This document shows, piece by piece, positions 447-49,156 of a stretch of DNA of 64,000 bases (its first letter is position 1; each line of letters starts with the position of its first letter). The position numbers were made by a program, and so were the translations under genes. The DNA is from Catenisphaera adipataccumulans (GTDB taxonomy: Bacteria; Bacillota_I; Bacilli_A; Erysipelotrichales; Erysipelotrichaceae): the NCBI RefSeq assembly GCF_014202755.1, contig NZ_JACHHK010000001.1, positions 1 to 64,000 of the forward strand, given 5' to 3'. The notes below the pieces were generated by a model. It did not search any database. It had not been told where the DNA came from and saw nothing but the letters and a program-made list of their open reading frames with translations.

Positions 447-520
447 TGGAGCAGGTGATGAGAATCGAACTCACGTAGTCAGCTTGGAAGGCTGAAGTTC
501 TACCATTGAACTACACCTGC
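447..520 (-). tRNA. tRNA-Gly(TCC), copy 1
   Basis: A 74-base cloverleaf including an encoded CCA end. The anticodon loop CTTCCAA reads TCC inside stem TCAGC/GCTGA. The acceptor GCAGGTG pairs with CACCTGC. It is identical to the copy at 808-881. It is the last gene of a four-tRNA unit and ends about 10 bases before the terminator. Confidence 0.97.
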
Positions 521-529
521 ATAAAAAAA

Positions 530-605
530 TGGTGACCCGTGGGCGATTCGAACGCCCGACCCTTTGATTAAAAGTCAAATGCTCTACCAACTGAGCTAAC
601 GGGTC
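530..605 (-). tRNA. tRNA-Lys(TTT)
   Basis: A 76-base cloverleaf with encoded CCA. Acceptor GACCCGT pairs with ACGGGTC; anticodon loop CTTTTAA reads TTT. It lies between tRNA-Thr and tRNA-Gly in the same transcript. Confidence 0.97.
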
Positions 606-608
606 ACG

Positions 609-684
<76 letters not shown>

Positions 685-685
685 A

Positions 686-761
686 TGGTGGAGGTTAACG
701 GGCTCGAACCGCTGACCCTCTGCTTGTAGGGCAGACGCTCTCCCAACTGAGCTAAACCTCC
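686..761 (-). tRNA. tRNA-Val(TAC) with C at position 33
   Basis: A 76-base cloverleaf with encoded CCA; acceptor GGAGGTT pairs with AACCTCC. The anticodon loop is CCTACAA, so the base before the anticodon (position 33, plus-strand base 729) is C. Nearly all elongator tRNAs have U there because it makes the U-turn of the loop. The other tRNA-Val at 1083-1158 is otherwise the same and has the normal U33. The copy may be poorly functional, or the base may be a sequencing error. It is the first gene of the second tRNA unit. Confidence 0.93.
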
Positions 762-772
762 GTGCAATTCAA

Positions 773-801
773 ACTATACCAATCCTGAAACCATCTGTCA
801 A
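773..801 (-). promoter_or_regulatory. Promoter of the Val-Thr-Lys-Gly tRNA unit
   Basis: The reverse strand shows a perfect -35 TTGACA (796-801), a 17-base spacer and -10 TATAGT (773-778). The predicted start is about 5 bases before the tRNA-Val. It therefore makes the second tRNA block an independent transcription unit. Confidence 0.8.
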
Positions 802-807
802 ATTAAA

Positions 808-881
808 TGGAGCAGGTGATGAGAATCGAACTCACGTAGTCAGCTTGGAAGGCTGAAGTTCTACCATTGAACTACACCTGC
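808..881 (-). tRNA. tRNA-Gly(TCC), copy 2
   Basis: Identical in sequence to the tRNA-Gly at 447-520, with encoded CCA and anticodon TCC. It is the last gene of the upstream tRNA unit. No clear terminator lies between it and the next promoter. Confidence 0.97.
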
Positions 882-901
882 ACGTTGCAGTTTCAAAAAA
901 G

Positions 902-977
902 TGGCTGGGGTAACTGGATTCGAACCAGTGGAATGCAGGAGTCAAAGTCCTGTGCCTTACCGCTTGGCTATACCCCA
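902..977 (-). tRNA. tRNA-Gln(TTG)
   Basis: A 76-base cloverleaf with encoded CCA. Acceptor TGGGGTA pairs with TACCCCA and the discriminator is G. Anticodon loop CTTTGAC reads TTG. Confidence 0.96.
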
Positions 978-991
978 ATATAAATAAAAAG

Positions 992-1075
992 TGGTGGAGG
1001 AGGGCAGATTCGAACTGCCGAACCCGAAGGAACTGAGTTACAGTCAGCCGCGTTTAGCCACTTCGCTACTCCTCC
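992..1075 (-). tRNA. tRNA-Tyr(GTA)
   Basis: An 84-base class II tRNA with a long variable arm and encoded CCA. Acceptor GGAGGAG pairs with CTCCTCC; anticodon loop CTGTAAC reads GTA. Confidence 0.96.
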
Positions 1076-1082
1076 AAAAAGC

Positions 1083-1158
1083 TGGTGGAGGTTAACGGGC
1101 TCGAACCGCTGACCCTCTGCTTGTAAGGCAGACGCTCTCCCAACTGAGCTAAACCTCC
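1083..1158 (-). tRNA. tRNA-Val(TAC), normal copy
   Basis: A 76-base cloverleaf with encoded CCA. The anticodon loop CTTACAA reads TAC and has the normal U33. It differs from the copy at 686-761 only at this base. It is the first gene of the upstream tRNA unit, about 7 bases after the predicted transcription start. Confidence 0.97.
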
Positions 1159-5480: not shown

Positions 5481-5715
5481 CTCTTCAAAAGAAAACGCCC
5501 TGTGTCGCAACACAGGACGAAAATTTCGCGGTACCACCTGATTTGACATGAACCTCTCATGTCCGCTTATCATCTAACGTGTGATCACGTCCCGGTTCAC
5601 CGGGCCCTCCGAAGTCCATCACCCAACACAGATCATCCGGCTTCCACCCTCCCGGATTCGCTGCAGACTGCTTCCATGGGATCCTTCTTCTTCAGCGGTT
5701 TCAATTATTTTATCA
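5481..5715 (-). promoter_or_regulatory. T-box leader, probably tRNA-Trp responsive, with promoter
   Basis: The reverse strand carries the T-box sequence AGGTGGTACCGCG (5527-5539) followed by a terminator with stem CGTCCTGTG/CACAGGGCG and T-rich end (5491-5519). Stem I is recognisable: base GAAG-GA-TCC with GGA-CTTC, and an apical GGTGGAAG loop closed by ATCCGG/CCGGAT. The specifier loop 3' strand TGTTGGGTGAT contains TGG, the Trp codon. Uncharged tRNA would favour the antiterminator and turn on trpXYZ. An extended -10 (TGA-TAAAAT, 5707-5715) sits just before the stop codon of the transporter gene upstream. The TGG assignment is inference. Confidence 0.88.
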
Positions 5716-40334: not shown

Positions 40335-40345
40335 ATCCACTGTCA

Positions 40346-40472
40346 AGACAGGGGCGCCTTCGGGCTGAGATGCACATGCTGTCCCTTATGACCTGATCTA
40401 GGTAATGCTAGCGTAGGGAGTTCTGAAAATCTTAGTATTCTCTTTACGCACCTAATTTGGAGGTGTTTTTTT
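40346..40472 (+). promoter_or_regulatory. TPP riboswitch with terminator/RBS-blocking hairpin
   Basis: The thi-box aptamer is clear: GGGGCGCC, then GGGCTGAGATG, then ACCTGATCTAGGTAATGC and GCGTAGGGA (40351-40419). It binds thiamine pyrophosphate and should shut off thiT when TPP is high. A hairpin CACCT/AGGTG (40449-40453 with 40461-40465) is followed by seven T and then the ATG. The same 3' arm contains the GGAGGTG ribosome binding site, so the hairpin could act both as a terminator and as a translation block. Confidence 0.95.
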
Positions 40473-41033
40473 ATGAAAAATCAAAATCAGATCAGATGGA
40501 TCACGTATTTGGCATTATATGCCGCGTTATCCGTTGTATTAAAGTATGCGTCGCAGATGATTCCATTTCTGCAGATGCCGCAGGGCGGTTCCATCGAGCT
40601 GGAATATTTGGCGATCTTCATCGCTTCGTATCACCTAGGATGGAAAAACGGCATCATTGTCGGCTTGCTGGCATGGCTGCTGGGCTTTATTTTCGGCTTC
40701 AACAACTGGTTCTTAAATCCAATGCAGTATTTGCTGGATTATATTATTCCTGTGCTCGTCTGCGGTGCGGCTTCCGCATTGTGCCCGTCTAAGAACGAAA
40801 AGGTCCGTCTGTACGGCGGCGTGACGATCGCAATGATCCTGAAATATGCCAGCACCGTATTAAGCGGTGTTTACTATTGGCCGCCGGAAGGTTCCGTTGC
40901 CGGCACTTCTGCAGCTTGGTTATATTCCTTATCCTATAATGCCTGGTACAACTTGGCGACATTGATCGTCTGCATCATTCTGGTGCCGCTGTTATATAGA
41001 GCACTGGCACCGGTCATTCGAAGAAACGCATAA
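40473..41033 (+). CDS. thiT: Thiamine ECF transporter S component
   Basis: A 186-residue membrane protein with six segments. MPQGGSIELEY, the NPMQYLLDYIIPV segment and the YNAWYN motif are hallmarks of ThiT thiamine binding. It works with a shared energising module (EcfA, EcfA', EcfT) encoded elsewhere. TPP control directly upstream supports the substrate. Monocistronic, ending at a strong terminator. Confidence 0.95.
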   Translation: MKNQNQIRWITYLALYAALSVVLKYASQMIPFLQMPQGGSIELEYLAIFIASYHLGWKNGIIVGLLAWLLGFIFGFNNWFLNPMQYLLDYIIPVLVCGAASALCPSKNEKVRLYGGVTIAMILKYASTVLSGVYYWPPEGSVAGTSAAWLYSLSYNAWYNLATLIVCIILVPLLYRALAPVIRRNA

Positions 41034-41082: not shown

Positions 41083-42021
41083 TCATTTAAATCGTTTGTT
41101 GCGCGAAAATACGATCCAGGCAATGATACAGCTGATCAAGCAGACCAACGTCGGGAACCAAACATACGGCACCGGCAGTTTGACGTTCATGCCATAGAAC
41201 GCAAAAATAATATTCGGAATGGACATGATGATCGTGATGATCGATAAAAACTTCATGACATCATTCATATTGTTGTTGATGACACTGCTGAAGGCATCGC
41301 GCATGCCCGATAAAATACCCGAATAGATGGAACACATCTCAACGCCCTGCCGGATCTCGATCAAGATATCTTCCAGCAGATCGTCGTCTTCTTCGTATAA
41401 TTTAATAGCCTTGCCCCGGCGGATCCGGTTCAGCGTCGCTTCATCAGATTTCAGTGAAGTTGAAAAATAAACCAGAGATTTTTCCAGGTCCAGCAGCTGC
41501 AGCAGTTCTTTATTGCGCACCTGCTCCAGTAATTGATTTTCGATCCGGTTGGTCAGCTGATCAATTTCCCGCAGGCATAACAAGAATCGCTGTGAAATGC
41601 GCAGCAGGATCATCAACGTAAAACGGGTCTTCAGCCGCGTGTCGATTCCCTTGAACTGACCGCGCATCAACTCCGAAATGGTCCAGCTTTCATACAAGCT
41701 GATCGTGACCACAAAGCCTTTGATGATCACGATGCCCAGCGGATACGTAAAATATTCATAGATATTCGGTTCACTGCGTTTGTTGTCCAAGCTCGGGTAA
41801 TCGACAATGACCAAAGTTTGATGCAGTTCATCATCAAAGTCAATATGTGAGCTTTCTTCCGGGTCCAGTGAAGATTTCACGAATTCCGGCAGCACACCGA
41901 TCGTATCGATCAGATAGTTACGTTCATTTTCGGTCGGAGCGATGACATTGATCCAGCAGCCTGTTTCCGGCTCAGAAATCTTGATCGTTCCAATATCGGT
42001 CGTTTTATAAAATTCAATCAT
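41083..42021 (-). CDS. corA: CorA family divalent metal transporter
   Basis: A 312-residue protein with a large cytoplasmic domain and two C-terminal membrane helices. The signature FAFYGMNV before the last helix is the GMN selectivity filter. CorA proteins are pentameric channels for Mg2+ (some Co2+ or Zn2+). AAAGGAGG lies seven bases before the ATG and directly after the stop codon of a 23-codon reading frame. No clear separate promoter is seen between the rnpB terminator and this small reading frame, so rnpB readthrough or a promoter inside rnpB is likely. Confidence 0.9.
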   Translation of the reverse strand: MIEFYKTTDIGTIKISEPETGCWINVIAPTENERNYLIDTIGVLPEFVKSSLDPEESSHIDFDDELHQTLVIVDYPSLDNKRSEPNIYEYFTYPLGIVIIKGFVVTISLYESWTISELMRGQFKGIDTRLKTRFTLMILLRISQRFLLCLREIDQLTNRIENQLLEQVRNKELLQLLDLEKSLVYFSTSLKSDEATLNRIRRGKAIKLYEEDDDLLEDILIEIRQGVEMCSIYSGILSGMRDAFSSVINNNMNDVMKFLSIITIIMSIPNIIFAFYGMNVKLPVPYVWFPTLVCLISCIIAWIVFSRNKRFK

Positions 42022-42033
42022 AGGTTTCCTCCT

Positions 42034-42105
42034 TTAATCGAAGGAAACACTTCCTTCGATGATCGCGGCAATAAAAAAATCGTGACTGTAGGGATCTTCT
42101 TTCAT
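42034..42105 (-). CDS. Possible 23-codon leader peptide before corA
   Basis: The reverse strand reads ATG at 42103-42105, then 22 more codons to a TAA at 42034-42036. The peptide begins MKEDPYSHDFF and ends EGSVSFD. An AGGAG lies 10 bases before its ATG, and its TAA touches the AAAGGAGG of corA. The Glu-Asp-Pro run near the start resembles peptides that destabilise ribosomes at low Mg2+ (as in MgtL of Salmonella), and Salmonella corA also has a leader frame (corL). These parallels are suggestive only; it has not been shown to be translated. Confidence 0.5.
   Translation of the reverse strand: MKEDPYSHDFFIAAIIEGSVSFD
42037..42060 (-). promoter_or_regulatory. Hairpin at the end of the corA leader
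   Basis: A perfect 10-base stem ATCGAAGGAA/TTCCTTCGAT with loop GTGT lies in the last codons of the leader frame. Its right part also can pair otherwise: GTTTCC (within the loop and right arm) with GGAAAC at the corA ribosome binding site. The two structures exclude one another, so ribosome position on the leader could set corA translation. Confidence 0.5.
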
Positions 42106-42125
42106 GTCCGATCATCTCCTCTCAT

Positions 42126-42157
42126 TTAAAAACAGGCAAGGGACAAACCCTTGCCTC
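42126..42157 (-). terminator. Terminator of RNase P RNA gene
   Basis: Reverse-strand stem AGGCAAGG/CCTTGCCT with loop GTTTGT, then GTTTTT. Confidence 0.85.
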
Positions 42158-42159
42158 AT

Positions 42160-42490
42160 TTCCGAATTCATAAGCCATGTTCTGTAACTAGCAGCCATTT
42201 ATCTATAACCGAAGTTATCCAGTCTTCCTTTCAATTCATTCCGACCGGCTCCCCTACCAAATTTGGGTTTCTCGCTTGCGGGGTTTACCCGTTCCACCCG
42301 GCTGTTTTCACAGCCGGCTCGTCTCTGTGGCACTTTCAAGTTCGCTTCCTTAGTTTCCCTTAGGATCAGAACTGCCGTCAGCTTACGCTGCCCGGACTTA
42401 TGACTTCGTCCGGCACAAACACTACGGTCATCGCAGACCGTGCGAGCATGGACTTTCCTCTGGCAAAAGCCAGCGACTGCGTTTTCGGAA
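42160..42490 (-). ncRNA. rnpB: RNase P RNA
   Basis: The reverse strand carries the universal RNase P RNA core: GAGGAAAGTCCATGCTCGCA near the 5' end and ACAGAACATGGCTTATGAAT near the 3' end. The ends pair as helix P1, TTCCGAA (42484-42490) with TTCGGAA (42160-42166). It is the catalytic RNA that trims tRNA 5' leaders. Length of about 331 bases is slightly short. It follows gpsB directly, the same order as in Bacillus; the gpsB stop nearly touches P1. Confidence 0.96.
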
Positions 42491-49049: not shown

Positions 49050-49149
49050 AAAAAAACGACCGTCCGGGTCTTATCAGCCCAGACGGTCGGCTCTTTACTT
49101 TCTTATACTCCCATGTGGTAGGCTCCACAATACCGTCAGTCATATAAGA
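49050..49149 (-). promoter_or_regulatory. ZTP (pfl motif) riboswitch with terminator
   Basis: On the reverse strand, P1 is TCTTATA/TATAAGA (49143-49149 with 49101-49107) and P2 is TGTGG/CCACA (49125-49129 with 49114-49118). Between them are GACTGACGG and ATGGGAG, matching the conserved pfl-motif core. The 3' domain has CCGTCTGGGC, the conserved CCGCCTGGGC-like segment. A 12-base stem CGACCGTCTGGG/CCCGGACGGTCG followed by seven T (49050-49089) is the expression platform. ZTP and ZMP build up when 10-formyl-THF is low, and should prevent termination and turn on pflB. Confidence 0.93.
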
Positions 49150-49156
49150 TACTCAC

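Follow-up and report, generated by a model that had tools for sequence, protein, structure and literature searches.

A putative leader-peptide attenuator of corA, resembling MgtQ, in Catenisphaera adipataccumulans and related bacteria of its order

The corA Locus and Its Leader

The window, which is the whole stretch of DNA analysed, comprises 64,000 nucleotides from Catenisphaera adipataccumulans (contig NZ_JACHHK010000001.1, positions 1 to 64,000). On its minus strand, the RNase P RNA gene rnpB is followed by a terminator-like hairpin, the Shine-Dalgarno (SD) sequence AGGAG, an ORF of 23 codons, a second SD sequence AGGAGG, and the Mg2+ transporter gene corA (Table 1). The short frame with its preceding AGGAG and its end at the corA ribosome binding site (RBS) had been pointed out in a preliminary description of this DNA, as had the Glu-Asp-Pro motif at residues 3 to 5, and both were confirmed. 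The TAA stop codon of the leader (42036-42034) directly adjoins AGGAGG, and the ATG of corA is located at 42021. A 33-amino acid ORF starting at 42115 was rejected as the leader frame, because AGGAG directly abuts its start. The predicted CorA protein matches TIGR00383 with an E value of 8e-28 and a score of 97.7 bits, which lies under the cut-off of 200.75, and shares 58-64% identity with most of the leader-bearing CorA proteins of the order.

Three helices can form in this region. Stem 2:3, a perfect helix of 10 bp at the end of the leader (ATCGAAGGAA with TTCCTTCGAT, or, written as the pair, AUCGAAGGAA/UUCCUUCGAU), agrees with the hairpin noticed previously. The pairing of GTTTCC with GGAAAC, which had been proposed to cover part of the corA RBS, is present and does cover the SD sequence; its length had been understated, since stem 3:4 (GUUUCCUUC with GGAGGAAAC) extends over 9 bp, including one G-U pair. 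Stem 3:4 masks the corA SD and is mutually exclusive with 2:3. To these is added stem 1:2, a perfect 8-bp helix of GAUGAUCG and CGAUCAUC not listed before, which closes off the start region of the leader itself. In the window, 1:2 and 2:3 overlap by merely 3 nt, and both are present together in the minimum free energy (MFE) fold.

When the stretch from codon 5 to the SD was subjected to 3000 dinucleotide-preserving shuffles, an equally long helix was obtained in 0.07% of them for the 10-bp stem 2:3, in 2.4% for the 8-bp stem 1:2, and in 15% for the 9-bp stem 3:4; all three jointly were found in none of the 3000. The 166-nt fold of the window has a z-score of -3.5. A terminator scan, which did detect the rnpB terminator, revealed no intrinsic terminator (i.e., a stem with a U-run) on the minus strand between 42133 and 42021; the terminator hairpin between leader and gene that would define a trp-type attenuator is lacking.

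Table 1. Features of the rnpB-corA region in the window (positions of the whole stretch).
Feature	Position	Strand	Basis or remark
rnpB, RNase P RNA class B	42166..42488	-	RF00011, 260.8 bits
rnpB terminator-like hairpin, immediately 5' of the leader	42134..42156	-	9-bp stem, then GTTTTT
Leader ORF Shine-Dalgarno AGGAG	42116..42120	-	sequence; 10-nt spacing to ATG
Leader ORF, 23 codons, MKEDPYSHDFFIAAIIEGSVSFD	42034..42105 incl. stop	-	translation; D4-P5 at the mostly [E/D]4-P5 site of the relatives
Leader codons 3-5, Glu-Asp-Pro	42091..42099	-	sequence; early acidic/Pro motif shared with relatives
Segment 1, GAUGAUCG, partner of segment 2	42109..42116	-	8-bp perfect helix; present in MFE fold
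Segment 2, portion pairing with segment 1, CGAUCAUC	42058..42065	-	only 3 nt (42058-42060) in common with stem 2:3
Segment 2, 5' arm of 2:3, AUCGAAGGAA	42051..42060	-	10-bp helix, -12.3 kcal/mol
Segment 3, GUUUCCUUCGAU	42037..42048	-	3' arm of 2:3 (42046-42037) and 5' arm of 3:4 (42048-42040)
Segment 4, GGAGGAAAC	42024..42032	-	3' arm of 3:4 over corA SD; 3:4 hairpin -10.9 kcal/mol
corA Shine-Dalgarno AGGAGG	42028..42033	-	sequence
corA, CorA-family Mg2+ transporter, 312 aa	41083..42021	-	TIGR00383 match and identity to relatives

Distribution and Conservation of the Leader

In a search for CorA, 316 genomes of the order were covered, 55 of which contain a close CorA. When the upstream DNA was read, leaders built to a single plan were recognised at 43 further corA loci of the order, which makes 44 with the window. 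The shared plan consists of a promoter, an SD of the GAAAGAAGGTG type, and a short ORF, followed by segments 2 and 3 and the corA SD; the segments of the relatives pair as 1:2, 2:3, and 3:4, the last of which hides the corA SD, and 1:2 is exclusive with 2:3 in most of them. The leader ORFs of the relatives have a length of 12-31 codons and mostly start with MSPEPE, MSPDP, MAPEPE, MSSDP, or MSLDxD. A model of the leader, R1, matches in 46 of the 316 genomes, and every strong match is located 5' of corA, the few weak extra ones resembling chance; a class-wide search added weak matches only, which fell mostly into coding sequence or ordinary terminators and were discarded as chance.

The most constrained part of the peptide is its beginning. 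Residue 4 is Glu or Asp in 41 of the 44 leaders and residue 5 is Pro in 42, while an acidic residue occupies position 4 or 6 in all 44; both leaders devoid of Pro5 carry a D-x-D motif (MSLDADG and MSLDSDG). D4-P5 of the window occupies the conserved positions, and a rough estimate based on usual amino acid frequencies predicts an acidic residue 4 with Pro directly behind it in <1% of random frames. Across the 44 leaders, the entropy of codons 4 and 5 is 0-0.36 bit at the first and second codon positions and 1.57-1.70 bit at the third. Since the first two positions are near-fixed and the third is variable, it is the amino acids that are selected and not the RNA alone; by this codon pattern, residues 4 and 5 of the leader peptide are under selection in the relatives. 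Past about codon 7, the peptide is unconstrained.

Conservation of the stems was assessed on alignment A1. Stem 1:2 has 91.7% of its cells paired, 23 double-sided changes, and a covariation of 0.257 compared with 0.156 in shuffles, which ignore relatedness, and with at most 0.114 for slid partners. For stem 2:3, 91.7% of the cells are likewise paired, double-sided changes occur at all seven of its pairs, and the covariation is 0.415 against 0.220 in shuffles of the same kind. The two stems share columns 81-85 of A1, yet both covary strongly. Because the shuffles are blind to relatedness, an independent comparison was made, in which duplexes between the segments of one sequence (cognate) were set against duplexes with the segments of all others (non-cognate). 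Cognate duplexes were preferred for 1:2 (z -10.8), 2:3 (z -10.2), and 3:4 (z -7.9), and the control duplexes 1:3, 1:4, and 2:4 gave no such preference, which indicates that both alternative folds are maintained. Stem 3:4 was assessed in this way and the window by the shuffles described above, since MAFFT had misplaced the last segment in part of A1 as well as segment 2 of the window.

The alignment in related genomes, which had been suggested as a check, thus lends support to the class of leaders as a whole, with 43 further corA genes preceded by an early acidic/Pro ORF, mutually exclusive stems, and compensatory changes, whereas none of the genomes searched contains a close relative of the window sequence and its sister loci are without a leader. 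For the order, these comparisons give good support to control of corA by a leader-peptide attenuator.

When 392 genomes were searched with the pattern GGTG-N-ATG-x-Pro-[D/E]-Pro, seven known corA leaders and the loci L123 and L124 were retrieved. The match at L123 is antisense and was rejected as chance. At L124 (about position 1500, genome G657), a leader-like ORF, MAPEPSSYSS..., follows GGGGGTGAG and lies 5' of a P-type ATPase frame; this is a code-4 genome, in which TGA encodes Trp. Thirty further MgtA loci from the same family showed no leader of the L124 type.

Proposed Mechanism and Alternative Explanations

A folding model in which the ribosome footprint is blocked was used to read out the unpaired fraction of the corA SD. 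Its median is 0.005 when the RNA is free; a ribosome placed at the start raises it to 0.32 and one at codon 5 to 0.33, and with a ribosome in mid-ORF it is 0. The corresponding values for the window are 0.32, 0.28, 0.32, and 0.06. From these values, a ribosome held at the start of the leader would open corA, while one that has moved on would not. The window SD is already partly open in the free RNA, so that only a small range of regulation is predicted for this copy. In the window as in the relatives, 3:4 is predicted to cover the RBS and to exclude 2:3.

The following sequence of events may be envisaged. At low Mg2+, ribosomes would be expected to be held or lost at the early acidic/Pro codons; with the start region occupied and the downstream segments free, 2:3 would form, the corA SD would be open, and CorA would be made. 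If ribosomes passed easily, or if there were none, 3:4 would form and the SD would be closed. In the relatives, a ribosome on segment 1 would release segment 2 from its pairing in 1:2. In the window, where 1:2 and 2:3 are compatible, the switch would be that between 2:3 and 3:4, set by whether or not ribosomes proceed beyond Glu-Asp-Pro into segment 2. Translation of the leader and ribosome loss at Glu-Asp-Pro are what we infer from this arrangement, and Mg2+ is proposed as the signal by analogy, because the controlled gene is that of an Mg2+ importer and because of the MgtQ and MgtL precedents. Taken as a whole, a leader peptide that acts on corA as a translational attenuator in the manner of MgtQ appears rather probable. 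The earlier idea of an attenuator that senses Mg2+ by translation is partly supported, by the class of leaders in the relatives and by a layout that matches MgtQ; it fares less well in the window itself, where 1:2 is not exclusive with 2:3, no promoter is recognisable, and the sister loci have no leader. Also counting against the attenuator is the fact that several relatives, those of the MSPDP types, have just one early acidic residue, which is weaker than the EPDP of MgtL.

The same attenuator might respond to a signal other than Mg2+, with stalling at Asp/Glu-Pro being governed by EF-P, an ABCF factor, or the supply of prolyl-tRNA. Ribosomes of B. subtilis do stall at Asp-Pro motifs and are relieved by EF-P or YfmR (PMC11381351), and Pro5 is roughly as frequent in the leaders as the acid at residue 4. 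This reading is nevertheless held to be unlikely: the two leaders without Pro5 have two acids one apart, every leader has an acid at 4 or 6, and the gene concerned encodes an Mg2+ importer, Mg2+ transporters also being the targets of the acidic leaders MgtL and MgtQ.

A second objection concerns the window alone, the leader of which could be the decaying remnant of an ancestral one that has lost its regulation. The CorA tree places the window together with L001 and L045 (100/99) amid leader-bearing lineages, in a topology with open forks and long branches; inspection of the upstream DNA showed no leader at the sister loci L001/L009 and L045. This would fit the loss of an ancestral leader from the sisters and its divergence in the window, where segment 1 has been shifted from the start codon to the SD spacer of the leader and where R1 fails to detect the copy. 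Moreover, the leader-bearing genomes with the order rnpB-corA carry, between the terminator of rnpB and the leader, an extended -10 element of the TG-TACAAT type; no such promoter is found between rnpB and the leader of the window, which may rely on read-through from rnpB. Decay would not be expected, however, to leave D4-P5 in place together with a perfect 10-bp stem 2:3 and a 9-bp stem 3:4, both built from the window's own sequence and matched to its own SD flank, with the three stems unequalled in the shuffles. Loss of regulation is therefore regarded as improbable, and attenuator function of the window copy as probable on these sequence features.

Adjacency of rnpB and corA is not confined to the window; rnpB lies just 5' of corA in eleven loci examined (the window, L045, L009, L035, L039-L041, L047, L050, L058, and L066). 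At L045, the corA SD comes straight after the T-run of rnpB and leaves no space for a promoter, so that corA may be read through from rnpB, the gene of an Mg2+-dependent ribozyme.

Plain translational coupling, in which ribosomes terminating on the leader would melt 3:4 and thereby allow corA to start, finds some footing in the window: the loop of 3:4 contains the stop codon, 15 nt ahead of corA, and in the folding model 3:4 is opened by a ribosome on the last leader codon. Among the relatives, however, the distance between stop and corA ranges from 13 to 49 nt, and at L048, L057, and L058 the stop even precedes segment 2, which speaks for the absence of a conserved link between termination and the corA start, unlike the N-terminal codons, and renders coupling quite unlikely. 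Direct binding of Mg2+ or some other ligand by a riboswitch, with an incidental ORF, is highly improbable, although alternative stems masking an SD are typical of riboswitches and an M-box exists elsewhere in the genome, since residues 4 and 5 are conserved codon-wise, alignment A1 shows nothing like a conserved aptamer core between the stems, and no Rfam 15 family matched the leader of the window or of ten relatives at the gathering score or at E up to 5.

Relation to Known Mg2+ Control Systems

The closest counterpart of the attenuator proposed here is mgtQ, an intergenic ORF between mgtC and mgtB of Salmonella, the acidic codons of which lower mgtQ translation and raise that of mgtB through a choice between 1:2/3:4 and 2:3 (PMC8092293). 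The corA leaders share with it the short ORF with a strong SD and early acidic codons, the opposition of 3:4 and, in most relatives, of 1:2 to 2:3, the masking of an Mg2+ transporter RBS by 3:4, and, as proposed, an output at the level of translation; a short SD-led ORF before an Mg2+ transporter gene and early acids selected as peptide were both found. Differences are that corA is controlled instead of mgtB, that the ORFs have 12-31 codons and not 8, that the phylum is another one, that the leader of most relatives follows its own promoter while mgtQ follows an operon gene, and that 1:2 of the window is not exclusive with 2:3. With mgtL (upstream of mgtA) and corL (upstream of corA) of Salmonella and E. 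coli, the leaders have in common a leader ORF before an Mg2+ importer gene and mutually exclusive structures (PMC11552253, PMC11282234); in E. coli, corL starts with UUG (PMC11552253, PMC11282234). An early acidic/Pro motif is shared with MgtL, in which the destabilising EPDP causes a loss of ribosomes that is countered by EttA (PMC11282234). Unlike here, where a competing stem masks the SD, mgtL and corL use Rho-dependent transcription termination, and the predicted anatomy of the corA leaders points to RBS masking rather than to a Rho output.

Sensing of Mg2+ by destabilisation of the ribosome on a leader peptide has so far been reported for Salmonella and E. coli. Searches of the open-access literature and of Rfam 15 yielded no instance of such control in Bacillota, where it is apparently undescribed. 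That Bacillota of this order use the ribosome as Mg2+ sensor for corA, with drop-off at acidic/Pro codons at low Mg2+ and subsequent exposure of the RBS by an alternative fold, is given even chances. If true, it would constitute a counterpart, possibly of independent origin, of enterobacterial MgtL/MgtQ with RBS masking in place of Rho as output; ribosome-destabilising leader peptides would then be a general bacterial Mg2+ sensor, and the same peptide logic combined with RBS masking at corA of another phylum would show that this is not an enterobacterial oddity. The 44 natural variants could be used to learn which residues and stems matter.

For the Mg2+ importers of Bacillota, this would add a second route of control beside the M-box (ykoK, RF00380), which also acts in cis on such importers, albeit as a ligand-binding aptamer without a leader ORF. 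RF00380 was not detected at the corA leader at the gathering score or at E up to 5. The only M-box of the C. adipataccumulans genome (G000:C3:256795-256957, L155; RF00380, 91.8 bits) precedes a 445-residue ORF that looks like mgtE, and with the corA leader two Mg2+ importers thus seem to be cis-controlled. M-box and leader do not clearly exclude each other in 60 genomes of relatives, in which they occur in 9 and 9 with 2 shared. Further RNA elements of the window are a TPP riboswitch (40340-40436, plus strand, 63.8 bits) that precedes the gene of a ThiT-like thiamine transporter (40473-41033, plus strand), a ZMP/ZTP riboswitch (49070-49153, minus strand), a T-box leader (5510-5704, minus strand), and a cluster of eight tRNA genes (450-1158, minus strand).
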